Assembly (NCBI GenBank): GCA_904420535.1
Contig: CAJFVQ010000011.1
Coordinates: forward strand, 1 to 55,823
DNA: 55,823 bases
Source of the DNA: Candidatus Cryptoclostridium obscurum
GTDB taxonomy: Bacteria > Bacillota > Dehalobacteriia > UBA7702
Direction: 5' to 3'
Under the pieces are notes generated by a model, which was given only the letters and a program-made list of their open reading frames with translations, made no database searches and had not been told where the DNA came from. Both the position numbers and the translations under genes were made by a program. This document shows positions 34,907-43,445 of this stretch, piece after piece; the stretch's first letter is position 1; each line of letters opens with the position of its first letter.

Positions 34907-36208
34907 ATGAAGCGATTTTTGCTTGTTTTATGTTGTATTTTATCGATTCTACTTGGGGCCCTTGGTGTTTTTGCGGCAGAGGGGAACGTTTACCGAGTCG
35001 TTTTGGACGATACCATTGATAACGGCTCGGTTCATATGGTGAAAAAGGCCATTGAGGAAGCAGACGCCTCCATGGCGGATTTACTCATTGTGGAAGTTGA
35101 CACTTATGGCGGATACATTGATTCCGCCATCGAGATCAAAGATGCTATTTTATCCTCTCCAGTGAAAACGGTGACCTATGTTAATAAGAAAGCCATGTCC
35201 GCCGGGTCCCTGATCGCTGTGGCCGGGGAAAAAATGTATATGGCTCCCGGCAGTACTATCGGCGCAGCCGAGGCCAGAGAAGGAGAGGAAAAAGCGGACT
35301 ATAAGGTGACTTCCGCTTGGGTCTCCGAAATGCGCTCCACTGCAGAGGCACGGGGAAAGGATCCGAAATTGATGGCGGCAATGGCCGAGGAATCCATTGT
35401 CATTGACGGCCTGGTTGATGAAGGAGAATTGCTGTCTTTGACGGATAATGAGTCGTTGGAACTGGGGCTCGCCGACGGTTCCGCTTCGTCTCTCCTTGAT
35501 GTTTGTACGGCGGAAAATCTTACTGACGACACCATTACAACAGTGGAGGAATCGGGATTGGAAAAGATCGCGGCATTTTTAACCAGTCCTGTCGTATCAG
35601 GTTTATTGATTGCCATTGGTGTCGTGGGGCTTTTGATTGAATTGCTCACCACTGGAATTGGTGCTGCGGGAATCATTGGCATCAGCGCTTGGGTCCTTTA
35701 TTTTGCGGGCCACGCACTGCTCGATAACATTGGTTGGACCGCTGTGATTTTTTTTGCAGCAGGTCTGGTATTCATTATTTTAGAGGCATTTGTGATTCCT
35801 GGATTTGGCGTTGCTGGCATTGCCGGGATTGCGTCTATTTTATTCAGTGTATTTTTAATTGCTCCTTCTGTGGAGTCGGGTTTGATAACAATCGGCGTGG
35901 CCTTAGTGGCTGCGGTGTTGCTTATGGTGATTAGTATGAAGAATAAAAAAACAAGAAGTCTTTGGAAAAAACTGGTTTTAAAAGACAGAACCGATGCTGA
36001 AAATGGCTATACCTCGCCCAATATGGACAATTCCTCTTATCTTGGTAAAGAGGGCGTTGCCCTGACGCCGTTGCGTCCGGCGGGAACCATTGACATTGAT
36101 GGCGACCGAGTTGATGTTGTAACCGAAGGAGATTTTTTGGCTACCGGTACCAAGGTAAAAGTCATTGGTCTCGATGGTACGCGAATTGTCGTTCGTCTTG
36201 TAAAATAA
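34907..36208 (+). CDS. NfeD-family membrane-bound serine protease
   Basis: A 433-residue long-form NfeD protein. A signal sequence (about 1-25, MKRFLLVLCCILSILLGALG) is followed by a ClpP-like protease domain: EVDTYGGYIDSA, then the nucleophile region NKKAMSAGSLIAVAGEKMYM with Ser in SAGS. Four to five membrane helices come next (about 225-335), and a C-terminal OB-fold domain GKEGVALTPLRPAGTI faces the cytosol. Such proteins pair with flotillin-like FloA and take part in membrane microdomains and quality control. The gene lies 26 bases before floA. AAGGGG lies eight bases before the ATG. Confidence 0.92.
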   Translation: MKRFLLVLCCILSILLGALGVFAAEGNVYRVVLDDTIDNGSVHMVKKAIEEADASMADLLIVEVDTYGGYIDSAIEIKDAILSSPVKTVTYVNKKAMSAGSLIAVAGEKMYMAPGSTIGAAEAREGEEKADYKVTSAWVSEMRSTAEARGKDPKLMAAMAEESIVIDGLVDEGELLSLTDNESLELGLADGSASSLLDVCTAENLTDDTITTVEESGLEKIAAFLTSPVVSGLLIAIGVVGLLIELLTTGIGAAGIIGISAWVLYFAGHALLDNIGWTAVIFFAAGLVFIILEAFVIPGFGVAGIAGIASILFSVFLIAPSVESGLITIGVALVAAVLLMVISMKNKKTRSLWKKLVLKDRTDAENGYTSPNMDNSSYLGKEGVALTPLRPAGTIDIDGDRVDVVTEGDFLATGTKVKVIGLDGTRIVVRLVK

Positions 36209-37889: not shown

Positions 37890-37895
37890 TTGATG

Positions 37896-37926
37896 AGCGC
37901 CGACCATTTCCGGTCGGCGCTTTTTC
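37896..37926 (+). terminator. terminator of the nfeD-floA operon
   Basis: AGCGCCGACC (37896-37905) pairs with GGTCGGCGCT (37912-37921), then T residues. Confidence 0.93.
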
Positions 37927-38046: not shown

Positions 38047-38075
38047 TTGGAAAAATGCTAGAATTATGGTAGAAT
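38047..38075 (+). promoter_or_regulatory. promoter of the macroglobulin-like operon
   Basis: TTGGAA (38047-38052) and TAGAAT (38070-38075), 17-base spacer. An AAAAACCATGGTTTTT palindrome lies just upstream (38028-38045). Confidence 0.5.
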
Positions 38076-38118: not shown

Positions 38119-41100
38119 ATGAACGGAACGATTCAAAAGAAAAAAATGATATATTTAGGTGCAGCCATTGTCATGGTTGTAGTGGCGTCATTTCTTGTTT
38201 ATTGGTTTGCTTTACGGAATGTGAATCATTTTCCTGAGTTTGATGGTGTTTATGATAATGGGGAGCCGATCTCTATTATATCCGTAAGTCCATCGGATCT
38301 CAGCGGTGTGGCCCAAGATGAGCCTTTGATCATTCAGTGGAATCGCCCGGTTACCGCGGATGCCGCTGATGCCATTACCATTTCTCCTTCTGTTAAAGGG
38401 CATTGGACTGCCATCGGAGATCAGCTAATTTTTGAGCCCCAACGTTGGAAGAGCGGTACTTATTATACCGTTTCCATTGAGGAGGGAACAGAAATCCCGG
38501 GCAGTGGAAGCTTTGTTCAAAAAAGCACGGCTTTTTCTTTCGAAACCCAGGATTCTGCGTTGCGAATCCCCAGTACCAGTGGATTATTTTTAAATTCCCG
38601 CCAGTATTTTTTTGGTGAAGAAGAGGATATTGCGATCCCTGTTTCTTTTAACGATTCCACTGGTGCTGTACCTGAAGTTTCTTTAGAATTGTGGTCCTGT
38701 GAGGATAATGATCGTTTTATTGAAACATTTCTTCCTCTTTTTTCCCTACCGCAATGGGCAAATATTACGTCTGGCCATTTTGAGGCGGAGACTTCGGGAT
38801 TAAAACGTGTCAATGATATCGGATGTCGTTTGGAAGATGGGGAATTGCGCTTTGAGAATCCTGGAAATGGTCAGTATTTGGTTCGATTAACTGTGGGGGG
38901 AATCCGCAGGGATGTCGCTTTGACCGTAGGTTCTCTGAATCATTGTTTCTATTACGATGGCAGAACGCTCCTTTATGCTGATGCCAATGGTACAAGTTCC
39001 ACTGTGACCTGGGGGAATCTTTCCGCTGATACGGATGAAAATGGCTGCGTTTTATTGCGCCAAGAAGAATTCTCCTATGATGATTGTCTCTTAGATCCCA
39101 ATAAGAACGTGGTGCAGATTTCCAATGGCAGTGAGACGCAAACCATTTTTTTGCCTATGACTAAGGAGTTCGATCGATACACCGGTGAAATCACGGCATC
39201 ATCGCATCAGATAGAGCAAGGGGATAACCTTCGCTTATTTGGTTATCTGATTCCCACACTTACCTTGGATTCTTTGCCGGAAGAAGTAACAGTTTCTCTG
39301 GAAAATGAAAATGGCGTTGTGGAATCTGCCGTGGTTGCCCTGGATGAACAGGGGTGCTTCTCGGTAGAGTGGGAAAACTTGTCCTTGCCGAAAGGTCAAT
39401 GGAATGCCATAGTTTCCGTGGGAGATGAAGTCGTTACCTCCTGTAATTTTTCTGTTACGGACAAGAATGCCAATGAGCCGTATCTGATTGCGGAGGTCGG
39501 TTCTTCTTCTTATGAAAATGGCGATGAAATTTCCTTTACGGTCCATGCTTATGATGAAAAGGAACGCCCCATAGAAGGTTTAACCATTACTGCATCGGGA
39601 GATGTCGGGAAACGAATCACCGATGAAAACGGAGAAGCTATTTTCTATTTCCATGCGATGGACTCCAATATTCTCCCGGTATTGGATCAGAGAGTTGTTT
39701 TTACCGCAACATTGGATCATGGTGTTGTTTTGGAAACGGAATGCCGTTACTCGATTGCCAATTCTGAAATTGAAACAACTGCCAGCCCAAACAAGGCAGA
39801 GCAAACAGATGATAATGTAAAGGTTCTGTATGGTTCCATACAGGAGGGAGCTCTGGTTACTTCTTCTGAGGCGGATTCCGCTTATGATTTTATGATGACT
39901 TTAGAAGAGGATTCATTGGAAATCGCGCCGGAGAATATGGTGCAACCCAATCCTGATTTCCCGCAGGAGTTGACAGCGACAGCCGGCAGCGTATTGGAGT
40001 TTTCTCCCAATGATGACGGTGTTACCTATTTCGCTGCATTGTATGAAGGAAATCCCGCCGGTTCTTCGCTGGGACAAGGTATTTCTTCTTCTTTTGGCGA
40101 TGCGTTGGGAATGAATGCTTTTGCGCTGGATATGATTTCATCTGGCGATGCTACTTTCTCTTTGAATGTACCCTCTGATTCTGGCAGTTATTTTGTGCGG
40201 CTCTATGGAGTCATTCCTTCCCAAGGTGGGATTTATTGGGATATCCCCGTCACCATTACCGATGGTGTCCGGCTTTGGAATGCCAGTGAAGCCAATATTT
40301 CTTCCGATGACGATGTCTCTTTGGTTTTCCGAACCAGGGGGGAAGCTGATCGTTTTACATTAACTTTAGCAGATGGGATTACCGTTGAAGGCGATGTCGC
40401 AGAAACATTTACAGTCTCTTTGGGAAATTTGGCTGAGGGCAATTATCACGGGATTATCACCTTACAGCAGGATAATCGCGAAATATTTAACCAGGAAGTA
40501 TCTTTCTCCGTAGGAAGGGAAGAACCGCTCTTAAGAGTTAGTGGGGAAAAGACTGAAAAAGATAAAGTTTGGCAGTCTTACAAAGTTTCCGATGATATGA
40601 GGGATTATGTGACGAAACTGTTCCAGCTGAACCTCATCCATGGTGACCAGATTTTACAGATTATGGCTAGAAATGATTTTTACAGCGCTCTGGGTGAAGA
40701 TGCCGGTTCCTTTATTACTTATTGTAACAATGATCTATTATCCTATCAAAATAACGATGGCAGTTTCGGCCGTTTGCCGGGACTCGACGGCGATATGCTT
40801 CTTTCTGCTTTGGTGGCAGAGAACGAGTATGCTGAATTCCATCGTGATGCTTTGCTCCAATACGCCAAAGCGCGAAGCGGATATGATACGGATTTGGAAG
40901 TTCTTGCATTATGCTATTGGACCATGAGTTCTTTGGGGGAACCCCCGCTTGACGATATGAAAGCCCTTCTCCACGAAGATGACCTTTCGGATCTCGCGGC
41001 GCTTTATTTGGCAAAAGCTTTTCTTGCTGCCGGTGAGGTTGCCATTTCTGAAGACATTTATCATGAATTGAGTAATTCTCTAAACCGCGATGGGGATTCC

Positions 41101-41694
41101 GCTTATTTCCCTGATAACGATGGACAGCGTGCCATCATGAAAACATTGTTTATGTTGGATTTATCACTCTCCTTTGAAGGGAAGGACCAGGATCGCCAAA
41201 GTTATCTCAATCATTTAATGAATGTGGAGATGACCACTCAGACGAACCGTTATTTGTTGTCTCGCTGTCTTTTACAGTTACTCGATGTTGAACAGATTTC
41301 GTTGGCGGATGACGGTAATCTATTCTTACTAGAGGATACTCCTGAAACCGAAGAGATTCTCACGGCCTCTTTCCAAATTGGGGACCGAAATATTGCTAAG
41401 TGCGATGCGGGAGATACCGTAACCCTTGAGATACAATGGGAAGGGCTTTACAGAGAGAATAATCTTTATCTTGTTTATTTTGTCCCCAATGATGGAGTGG
41501 AAGTAATTGCGAATGAAAGAACCTCTTTGGGACATGGTTATGCCACAATCATCACGGAAGGCAGTAGTGCTCAAGTACAGTTTAGAGCAGGAAAGGCTTC
41601 TGAAGGTGTGATGAAAGAAGTCTACGTCTATGATTTGACTGCCGGAGTCCTGCTGGGTAAAACCGATGGGAAAGGACTGGTGGTTGAAGAATGA
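38119..41694 (+). CDS. alpha-2-macroglobulin-like surface protein without thioester
   Basis: A 1191-residue protein held in the membrane by a helix at about 10-32 (MIYLGAAIVMVVVASFLVYW), with the rest outside. An SbsA-type Ig-like domain comes first (about 52-145, ISVSPSDLSGVAQDEPLIIQ). Several beta-sandwich domains follow, two resembling macroglobulin domains: around EITASSHQIEQGDNLRLFGY, and SSSYENGDEISFTVHAYDEK. The C-terminal third (about 810-1090) is helical and looks like the macroglobulin thioester-type toroid: SYQNNDGSFGRLPGLDGDM, later MTTQTNRYLLSRCLLQL. The thioester motif CxEQ is missing, so it cannot trap proteases covalently. A last beta domain closes it. Its stop overlaps the next start (ATGA). 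Function unknown; the family assignment rests on pattern only. Confidence 0.7.
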   Translation: MNGTIQKKKMIYLGAAIVMVVVASFLVYWFALRNVNHFPEFDGVYDNGEPISIISVSPSDLSGVAQDEPLIIQWNRPVTADAADAITISPSVKGHWTAIGDQLIFEPQRWKSGTYYTVSIEEGTEIPGSGSFVQKSTAFSFETQDSALRIPSTSGLFLNSRQYFFGEEEDIAIPVSFNDSTGAVPEVSLELWSCEDNDRFIETFLPLFSLPQWANITSGHFEAETSGLKRVNDIGCRLEDGELRFENPGNGQYLVRLTVGGIRRDVALTVGSLNHCFYYDGRTLLYADANGTSSTVTWGNLSADTDENGCVLLRQEEFSYDDCLLDPNKNVVQISNGSETQTIFLPMTKEFDRYTGEITASSHQIEQGDNLRLFGYLIPTLTLDSLPEEVTVSLENENGVVESAVVALDEQGCFSVEWENLSLPKGQWNAIVSVGDEVVTSCNFSVTDKNANEPYLIAEVGSSSYENGDEISFTVHAYDEKERPIEGLTITASGDVGKRITDENGEAIFYFHAMDSNILPVLDQRVVFTATLDHGVVLETECRYSIANSEIETTASPNKAEQTDDNVKVLYGSIQEGALVTSSEADSAYDFMMTLEEDSLEIAPENMVQPNPDFPQELTATAGSVLEFSPNDDGVTYFAALYEGNPAGSSLGQGISSSFGDALGMNAFALDMISSGDATFSLNVPSDSGSYFVRLYGVIPSQGGIYWDIPVTITDGVRLWNASEANISSDDDVSLVFRTRGEADRFTLTLADGITVEGDVAETFTVSLGNLAEGNYHGIITLQQDNREIFNQEVSFSVGREEPLLRVSGEKTEKDKVWQSYKVSDDMRDYVTKLFQLNLIHGDQILQIMARNDFYSALGEDAGSFITYCNNDLLSYQNNDGSFGRLPGLDGDMLLSALVAENEYAEFHRDALLQYAKARSGYDTDLEVLALCYWTMSSLGEPPLDDMKALLHEDDLSDLAALYLAKAFLAAGEVAISEDIYHELSNSLNRDGDSAYFPDNDGQRAIMKTLFMLDLSLSFEGKDQDRQSYLNHLMNVEMTTQTNRYLLSRCLLQLLDVEQISLADDGNLFLLEDTPETEEILTASFQIGDRNIAKCDAGDTVTLEIQWEGLYRENNLYLVYFVPNDGVEVIANERTSLGHGYATIITEGSSAQVQFRAGKASEGVMKEVYVYDLTAGVLLGKTDGKGLVVEE

Positions 41695-42536
41695 GCAGTA
41701 AAATAAGTCAAAAGGTAAAAATTCGTTTGTTTCTCGCCTTTGCGATCATTTGTTGGGCCGTTGTGGCCTGTTGGGCAATGTACAGCCAACAACAGGGGTC
41801 TGCGGTAGATCCAATTTATCCTACGTTACACGGTGATATTTATAGTAATGCAGAGAATTTCCAATCGAGCAGCTCTGATCTCTCATCCCTTTACAGCGGC
41901 GGTATCAATACTTTGCTGGTAGCAAATCCTCAAGACGCTCCGAAAGCTACGGGAGAAGCTCTCTCGCTTTTGGCGCTCCACCGTCGCAGTGACCCCGTGA
42001 TTTTAATTTGCTTTCAAGACGGTATTGGTAGTGTCCCTCTTTACGGAGATGAACATTGGCAAACCGCCTATGGGGTTACCAATGTAAATCGAGATTTTTT
42101 AAAATATTTTGATCAGATGGGAGCCGTTTCCGATAATGAGACATTAAACCGCTGCAATGATTTAGGTGCTTTGATGACCTATTTTAGCTATTCTATGCCG
42201 GGTATTACCGTGGCGCCGCTGGTTTTTGATACTGCGACGGATTTATCCATGATAGAATCGACGATGCAAAAATTGCGACAGATTGCAAAGGAATCTTCGA
42301 TCGTGGTGATGCTGCCCCAAGGGGCTTCCGAAGCAGAGCTTTGTTCCGATAACGTTGATGATTTGGAGCGGTATTTCGGTGATGAAAACAGCGATTTTTC
42401 TGCGGTTCTGGGATCTGCGGCCACCGTGGCTCTTACAGCCTTTCACAGTCTTTCCGATGAAGAAACGGAAATTTATTTATGGAGTGAAGAAAAACCGCAA
42501 AAACTTTCTGATCTGCTGATCGTATCGGGAGAATAA
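41691..42536 (+). CDS. membrane-anchored partner protein, unknown function
   Basis: A 281-residue protein with one N-terminal membrane helix (about 12-30, LFLAFAIICWAVVACWAMY) and an outer domain of alternating strands and helices. INTLLVANPQDAPKATGEAL, VILICFQDGIGSVPLYGDEH and GITVAPLVFDTATDLSMIES resemble in order the MEMO / AmmeMemoRadiSam B fold, but the His ligands of that family are not apparent, so I treat this as a weak idea. The ATG overlaps the stop of the macroglobulin-like gene by four bases, so the two products are probably made in fixed proportion and act together at the surface. Otherwise unrecognised. Confidence 0.8.
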   Translation: MSSKISQKVKIRLFLAFAIICWAVVACWAMYSQQQGSAVDPIYPTLHGDIYSNAENFQSSSSDLSSLYSGGINTLLVANPQDAPKATGEALSLLALHRRSDPVILICFQDGIGSVPLYGDEHWQTAYGVTNVNRDFLKYFDQMGAVSDNETLNRCNDLGALMTYFSYSMPGITVAPLVFDTATDLSMIESTMQKLRQIAKESSIVVMLPQGASEAELCSDNVDDLERYFGDENSDFSAVLGSAATVALTAFHSLSDEETEIYLWSEEKPQKLSDLLIVSGE

Positions 42537-42575
42537 TTCTGAAATAATGATATTGATGAAATTGAGGTGGAAATA

Positions 42576-43445
42576 GTGAAACCATTAAAAGATTTTTTAA
42601 AAGAGGAGCGATTGATTCTCCATTGTGGAGGTACTGGACCGGAACTGATCAAACGGGGCGGCGTTGTTCCCGGTGCTCTTTCCTGTTTGCTTTATCCGGA
42701 TTTGGTTCGGGATATTCAAAGAGAATATGTGGAGGTTGGAGCAACTTTGATCCAGGCCTGTACCTTTGGTATGAACCCGATTTACGCTAAAATGCACATT
42801 CCCGACTACGACTGGGAAGAGATCAATCGACGGGGCGTCGCCTTGGCAAAGGAGTCCGCCGGTGGTAAGGCTTATGTATTGGCCAACATTGGTCCCACAG
42901 GGTTGATGCTGGAGCCCTTCGGCCCATTGACTCCCGCCGATGCGGAAGAGTCTTTTGCTGCCCAAATCAGAATTCTTTTGGAATGCGGTGTTGACGGCTT
43001 TTCTATTCAAACCTTTTACAGTTTGGAGGAATTGGCGGCGGCAGTACGGGCGGTACGCCGCTATTCGGATCTGCCCGTCATTGCCAGTGTGGTTTTAAAT
43101 CCTAACGGTGCCACGTTAATGGGCGAGACATTGGAACAGGCTTACGAAACTTTAATGCCGTTGGGAATTGAGTCCCTGGGGCATAACTGCGGCGATATTT
43201 CCGCAGAGCGTTTGGCGGAATTGATGGCACCCCTGGCGGCTAGTGCTGAAATTCCTCTTATTGCATGTCCCAATGCCGGCGTTCCCAGAGTGGTGGAGGG
43301 AAAAGCCGTTTATGATATGACGCCAGAAGAATTTGCTAGCGGCATTGCGATTTTGAAATCATGCGGTATCCGAATTTTAGGCGGCTGCTGCGGTACGGAT
43401 CGCCATCATATTGCCGCTGCCGCCAAAGTTCTGTTTCAGGATTGA
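42576..43445 (+). CDS. homocysteine S-methyltransferase-domain protein
   Basis: A 289-residue stand-alone Hcy-binding methyltransferase domain. It has LILHCGGTGPELIKRGG at the start, the NCG zinc ligand in LGHNCGDIS near residue 205, and the paired Cys GGCCGT near 268. The three Cys residues hold zinc for the thiol acceptor. It lacks the other modules of MetH, so the methyl donor (a methylated corrinoid protein, SAM or SMM) is not known. The start is GTG 42576 with GAGGTGG six bases upstream. It converges on and overlaps ylmC by ten bases. Confidence 0.88.
   Translation: MKPLKDFLKEERLILHCGGTGPELIKRGGVVPGALSCLLYPDLVRDIQREYVEVGATLIQACTFGMNPIYAKMHIPDYDWEEINRRGVALAKESAGGKAYVLANIGPTGLMLEPFGPLTPADAEESFAAQIRILLECGVDGFSIQTFYSLEELAAAVRAVRRYSDLPVIASVVLNPNGATLMGETLEQAYETLMPLGIESLGHNCGDISAERLAELMAPLAASAEIPLIACPNAGVPRVVEGKAVYDMTPEEFASGIAILKSCGIRILGGCCGTDRHHIAAAAKVLFQD

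Follow-up and report, generated by a model that had tools for sequence, protein, structure and literature searches.

A thioester-less macroglobulin-like protein and its degenerate Memo-family partner in Candidatus Cryptoclostridium obscurum

A 55,823-nt stretch of DNA from the Dehalobacteriia bacterium Candidatus Cryptoclostridium obscurum (assembly GCA_904420535.1, contig CAJFVQ010000011.1, positions 1 to 55,823; the whole stretch is called the window below) carries two overlapping genes that very probably encode a diverged, thioester-less bacterial alpha-2-macroglobulin (A2M) and a member of the Memo family. In related genomes exported Memo genes likewise follow A2M genes, and the A2Ms so paired lack the thioester motif CxEQ. 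We consider it fairly probable that the two proteins belong to a membrane-anchored envelope complex with a scaffold or sensor role in the window.

Identity of the two window proteins

The initial annotation, a model's reading of the DNA letters, had described a 1191-residue anchored protein with an Ig-like start, macroglobulin-like beta domains and no CxEQ, whose stop codon overlaps by four bases the start of a second anchored protein that it could not place. These features held up: both open reading frames (ORFs) were verified (1191 and 281 aa; Table 1), they share an ATGA at 41691-41694, each product has a single N-terminal transmembrane (TM) segment at aa 8-26, and a search for CxEQ in the 1191-aa protein found none. 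Pfam, NCBIfam and PDB sequence searches gave no direct placement for either protein, so that relatives were needed; phmmer against the PDB offered a weak lead only, to Salmonella A2M over aa 385-490 of the large protein. Within the same class there are longer homologues, of 1611-1729 aa, that carry Big_5, MG2, bMG3, A2M_BRD (the bait-region domain) and A2M domains, mostly over Pfam cut-offs, and the homologues at L039, L041, L047 and L052 each have several of the last four. The Ig-like start of the window protein has its counterpart in Big_5, which is over cut-off in the sister locus L036 and in the long homologues. A profile of the window family, compared by hhalign with a profile of 19 clade A2Ms (nearly all Memo-paired), scored 100% (E 4.4e-53, 1170 columns).

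Structure prediction and fold search, as the initial annotation had proposed, put A2M first for the large protein: Foldseek ranked E. coli A2M at the top (5a42, E 5.6e-26), followed by Salmonella A2M and then by human A2M-family and complement proteins. The helical toroid-like part noted earlier appears as about 11 predicted helices at aa 825-1053 of a low-confidence model, in the position of the thioester-domain (TED) toroid and in alignment with the TED of YfhM; a C-terminal beta domain follows it. There was no A2M_BRD match in the window protein or in the window genome, and no A2M domain is recognisable in the window copy; aa 547-690 aligned weakly with A2M_BRD (8/74 identical).

The gene directly 3' of the longer A2Ms is of the Memo family (in L040, Pfam E 2e-32 and TIGR04336 E 6e-36). 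In the sister locus L036 the partner scores 28.1 bits against TIGR04336 (AmmeMemoRadiSam-B; cut-off 26) and 25.3 against the Pfam model (cut-off 27); the window copy has no match to either. A profile of the window-family partners matched a profile of 23 exported Memos at 99.5% (E 2.9e-23), with most of the N-terminal two thirds aligned. An AlphaFold model made from window-family sequences alone reached a pLDDT of 73 and a pTM of 0.71, and Foldseek gave human MEMO1 as its first match (E 4.2e-6), with LigB-type extradiol dioxygenases next. When the PDB was searched with a profile of the paired Memos alone, MEMO1 was retrieved; a mixture of window-family and canonical Memos retrieved no chain. 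We conclude that the window partner is a degenerate Memo-family protein, with a predicted Memo/PCAD fold. Its predicted fold and core motifs, together with the position of L036 over the TIGR04336 cut-off, liken it to Memo/AmmeMemoRadiSam protein B (PF01875, TIGR04336) and human MEMO1, from which it differs in being membrane-anchored outside the cytosol, A2M-paired and without the histidine ligands. Protocatechuate/LigB-type extradiol dioxygenases belong to the same fold superfamily by Foldseek, but with the metal ligands absent a dioxygenase function is not expected.

The metal-site histidines of Memo are lost in all four window-family copies. Among the 23 exported Memos of other families, PHH is found in 21 and PHF in two, and the histidines of GPNH/APNH, EH/DH (GH in one) and DFSH/DYSH are kept in 23/23. 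The metal ligands of MEMO1 include H49, H81 and C244 (PMC11081632). By alignment, the counterparts of H49 and H81 fall within the conserved exported-Memo motifs and are absent from the window family; a counterpart of C244 is not evident in exported Memos, which mostly have TNSG at that place, so that metal binding by the canonical exported Memos is putative.

The pair also occurs in three genomes of the same GTDB family, with large proteins 28-29% and partners 24-25% identical to those of the window, and with the two genes overlapping by 4 bases in two genomes and by 19 in the third. One of them, RUG14212, is listed in Dehalobacteriia (PMC10327494), and a locus search with the four-sequence alignment led to three named metagenome-assembled genomes. 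Within contig limits, the sisters share the gene neighbourhood of the window, in the order NfeD, FloA, a small TM protein, the large protein, the partner, homocysteine methyltransferase and CoA transferase.

Partners of macroglobulins in the class and phylum

Our survey covered 43 genomes of the class Dehalobacteriia and 249 of the phylum. In the class, exported Memo occurs in 13/43 genomes; in 11 it lies on the contig of the A2M_BRD gene, about 3 kb 3' of the domain and on the same strand, and the remaining two sit on contigs different from that of the A2M_BRD gene. In the phylum, 15/15 strong matches to a Memo of about 300 aa (two of them from the class) are downstream of an A2M. Taken together, 24/24 same-contig exported Memo genes of this size are directly downstream of an A2M, with gaps mostly of -20 to +62 bases. 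A macroglobulin fold and a conserved adjacency, the absence of either of which would have spoken against the initial annotation, were thus both found, and its proposal of a thioester-less macroglobulin with a partner other than PbpC survives, the partner now being a Memo-family protein that has lost its metal ligands. The annotation was incomplete in missing the family of the partner and the clade-wide nature of the thioester loss.

None of the 24 Memo-paired A2Ms has CxEQ in its toroid, one having a chance CTEQ at aa 15; at the aligned site they mostly read GxRx[ED]Q, with Arg replacing Cys, and the window family reads GDQxLQ. In contrast, CxEQ is present in 24/24 of the A2Ms that the phylum survey found without a Memo (Fisher's test for Memo versus CxEQ loss, 24/0 against 0/24: 6e-14). 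The thioester is missing from Memo-paired A2Ms throughout the clade and not from the window copy alone. Since these A2Ms form essentially one clade (support 1.0), the association counts as one or a few events. Shorter thioester-less A2M-like proteins (984-1186 aa) with no adjoining Memo gene occur at L043-L046, L051, L053 and L055.

The A2Ms that keep the thioester fall with other partners. One group has a downstream partner of about 780 aa, which in L069 consists of Transgly, Transpeptidase and BiPBP_C domains and is of the penicillin-binding protein PBP1c type. The window pair resembles this Type I arrangement (YfhM-PbpC of E. coli) in its macroglobulin-domain and predicted toroid architecture, its membrane association and its tight two-gene coupling, but the window copy has neither CxEQ nor a recognisable bait or A2M domain, and its partner is Memo-like. 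A PBP-type partner was rejected from Pfam searches of the neighbours; the own-genome transpeptidase (PF00905) matches lie on other contigs.

In the other thioester group, which spans several families and is sister to the Memo-paired clade in a tree built without YfaS, an N-terminally anchored, exported AMMECR1 lies directly upstream in 12/12 loci tested (L077, L080, L081, L083, L084, L086-L090, L093, L095). All 14 genomes of this group have two AMMECR1 genes, and they are among just 16 of the 249 genomes that are listed with two. In L084, the single locus of this group tested for a downstream partner, a VanW-domain protein (L084:4965-5864) is directly 3' of the A2M with a 4-base overlap, AMMECR1 being upstream. 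The usual cytosolic AmmeMemo protein is a fusion of AMMECR1 with Memo, and in G024 (L111:494-6346) a radical SAM gene resembling that of L115 comes 12 bases after a thioester-less A2M, with Memo on another contig. Given these AMMECR1, Memo and radical SAM neighbours, parts of AmmeMemoRadiSam recur beside A2Ms. At the window locus there is no AMMECR1 or radical SAM partner, and the window genome encodes a canonical AMMECR1-LigB/Memo fusion and a radical SAM gene elsewhere (G000:C61; L115:3026-5362). Because of this separate set, and because both window proteins are anchored, membership of the pair in a cytosolic AmmeMemoRadiSam system was rejected.

A further link is to extracytoplasmic function (ECF) sigma factors. 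Nine members of the thioester-less clade (L047, L049, L052, L054, L094, L098, L107, L108, L112) have a sigma-factor-sized gene directly upstream, which is an ECF sigma in 6/6 checked; two of the nine (L047, L049) are without a Memo gene. Ahead of the TM segment, the sigma-linked A2Ms have a cytosolic N-terminal extension of about 50-115 aa (partly masked in one of them), whereas the A2Ms checked without a sigma gene have short N-termini. Its position alone suggests that the extension is an anti-sigma domain, in which case these A2Ms may be anti-sigma factor ectodomains.

We tentatively propose, as a possibility that falls somewhat short of our preferred reading of the window pair, that exported AMMECR1 (with thioester A2Ms) and exported Memo (with thioester-less A2Ms) make up, together with these macroglobulins, a family of envelope complexes for sensing or trapping that has so far gone unrecognised, that some of these A2Ms are transmembrane anti-sigma ectodomains, and that the window pair is a reduced member that has lost both active sites. 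The role of Memo and AMMECR1 proteins is an old open question. The primary molecular function of human MEMO1 itself is still called unknown (PMC11081632), and the strict genomic link of exported Memo or AMMECR1 to macroglobulins would supply a concrete partner and a testable lead on MEMO1-type function. The A2M classes of bacteria would extend beyond the PBP1c and Mag types, with thioester loss tied to a specific partner, and A2Ms emerge as candidate ectodomains in ECF-sigma signalling. That some bacterial A2Ms lack the thioester is already known (Type II, MagD; PMC5764988). The pairing of A2Ms with Memo or with AMMECR1, and their link to sigma genes, are apparently new: a literature search found no paper joining A2M with Memo or AMMECR1, and an ECF sigma link to A2M turned up in none of the papers of that search, no separate search having been made. 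Earlier notice is possible, most likely in the study of Memo gene neighbourhoods by Burroughs et al. 2019 (cited in PMC7159879).

Proposed role and competing explanations

In our proposal, the thioester-less A2M ectodomain and the exported Memo would be subunits of one membrane-anchored envelope complex. Most relatives keep the bait-region domain in A2M and the metal-site histidines in Memo, for which a conformational device seems most likely: bait cleavage or ligand binding would change the A2M, and this change would be coupled to Memo and, where an ECF sigma gene and a cytosolic extension are present, relayed to transcription. The window family would have retained the two-subunit architecture without a recognisable bait domain or a metal site, and this loss makes a scaffold or sensor role the most likely one there. 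The window pair would then be non-enzymatic, with the pseudo-Memo holding the A2M in place or stabilising it, much as MagB, a membrane-anchored partner, stabilises MagD (PMC5764988). As a pair in which both subunits have decayed in parallel, it could serve as a natural experiment on such a complex without bait domain and metal. The comparisons establish homology, predicted folds, the coupling of the genes, the motif losses and, across the clade, the tie between Memo and a missing thioester; a physical complex, a location in the envelope beyond what the anchors indicate, a scaffold or sensor role and signalling are what we infer from them.

Several observations weigh against this proposal. The AlphaFold model of the window A2M is poor overall (pLDDT 51.5, pTM 0.25). 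The clade-wide association is phylogenetically non-independent. No sigma gene is linked to the pair at the window locus, so that signalling there is not supported. The disordered aa 547-690 could still act as a bait. Finally, the pair is 29% identical between the window and L036 where the neighbouring FloA is 86% identical, so that the pair evolves fast, and the Memo-like gene of L037 (L037:7951-8430) shifts reading frame before its C-terminus; either could mean decay. The frame change in L037 may be real or an assembly error.

A bait in aa 547-690 would be the core of a Type II-like, non-covalent protease trap, in which this acidic, flexible region is a divergent bait and trapping proceeds without a thioester. 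MagD offers the precedent, as it lacks CxEQ and traps protease after bait cleavage (PMC5764988); the region is predicted to be disordered, as a bait could be, and A2M_BRD is kept in the Memo-paired relatives. The window pair also resembles the Type II system (MagD/YfaS, mag operon) in its missing thioester and operon partners, with MagB as a model for an anchored stabiliser. However, YfaS groups with the thioester A2Ms, on a long branch outside the Memo-paired clade, and the DUF1175, DUF2138, DUF2300 and DUF2135 proteins that neighbour it are all missing from the window locus; a Type II classification was rejected on this tree placement and these differing partner genes. Non-covalent trapping, one of the surface tasks suggested in the initial annotation, is weakened by the lack of a detectable bait-region domain in the window copy and by so poor an alignment to that domain, and we regard it as unlikely; scaffolding, the other task named there, or sensing may apply instead.

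Rather less likely, in our judgement, is a defence against attack on peptidoglycan or the envelope, in which the A2M-Memo pair would cap or stabilise envelope sites, by analogy with the defence that MagD provides against peptidoglycan-targeting effectors of the type VI secretion system (PMC12663445). The pairing of related A2Ms with PBP1c or VanW would fit such a role, but there is no wall gene at the window locus, and the type VI system is a threat to diderms.

The least weight goes to the view that the pair is a decaying remnant of an A2M-Memo system no longer needed by the lineage, which we hold to be improbable. The disappearance of the bait domain, the thioester remnant and the metal ligands, the 24-29% identity among family members set beside that of FloA, and the frame change in one sister copy speak for decay. 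Against it, the two genes keep their order in four genomes, where the large ORF is full-length and the anchors and the core motifs WQT, SxVDP and GDQxLQxM are conserved, and chance would not keep a 3.6-kb ORF intact across four genomes so diverged.

Features of the locus

Table 1. Features in and around the gene pair (window positions)
Feature	Position	Strand	Basis or remark
Strong terminator-like hairpin between the NfeD/FloA/small-TM genes and the pair	37895..37922	+	11 pairs, 8 GC
Promoter-like site with TG ahead of second hexamer, candidate A2M operon start	38047..38075	+	9/12; consensus match only (22 sites in region vs 11.7 expected)
A2M-like protein without thioester, 1191 aa, one N-terminal membrane anchor	38119..41694	+	
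N-terminal TM segment of A2M, aa 8-26	38140..38196	+	
Big_5-like Ig domain of A2M, aa 50-143	38266..38547	+	L041 Big_5 alignment, 29/94 identical; Big_5 over cut-off in L036
bMG3-equivalent region of A2M, aa 270-337	38926..39129	+	Alignment and domains of relatives
MG2-equivalent region of A2M, aa 357-446	39187..39456	+	Alignment; phmmer and profile matches to Salmonella A2M
Acidic low-confidence stretch of A2M, aa 547-690, where A2M_BRD would be	39757..40188	+	
Predicted helical toroid (TED-equivalent) of A2M, aa 817-1054	40567..41280	+	Predicted helices; YfhM TED alignment
GDQILQ, aa 842-847, without Cys	40642..40659	+	Aligned with YGCxEQ (thioester) of other A2Ms
C-terminal beta domain of A2M, bMG10-like position, aa 1081-1191	41359..41691	+	
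Degenerate Memo-family protein, 281 aa, N-terminal membrane anchor	41691..42536	+	Start overlaps A2M stop (ATGA)
TM segment of Memo-like protein, aa 8-26	41712..41768	+	
Memo core, aa 72-207	41904..42311	+	WQTxxG retained; PHH, GPNH, EH and DFSH metal-site motifs gone
Homocysteine S-methyltransferase-like gene, 30 bp 3' of the pair	42567..43445	+	Same order in sister genomes

The homocysteine S-methyltransferase-like gene is possibly co-transcribed with the pair, and we do not claim it as a member of the system. Upstream, the window NfeD (34907-36208) is of the long form, 433 aa with a ClpP-like N-terminal domain; in two sister genomes its position ahead of FloA is taken by a short NfeD-like gene (245-250 aa).
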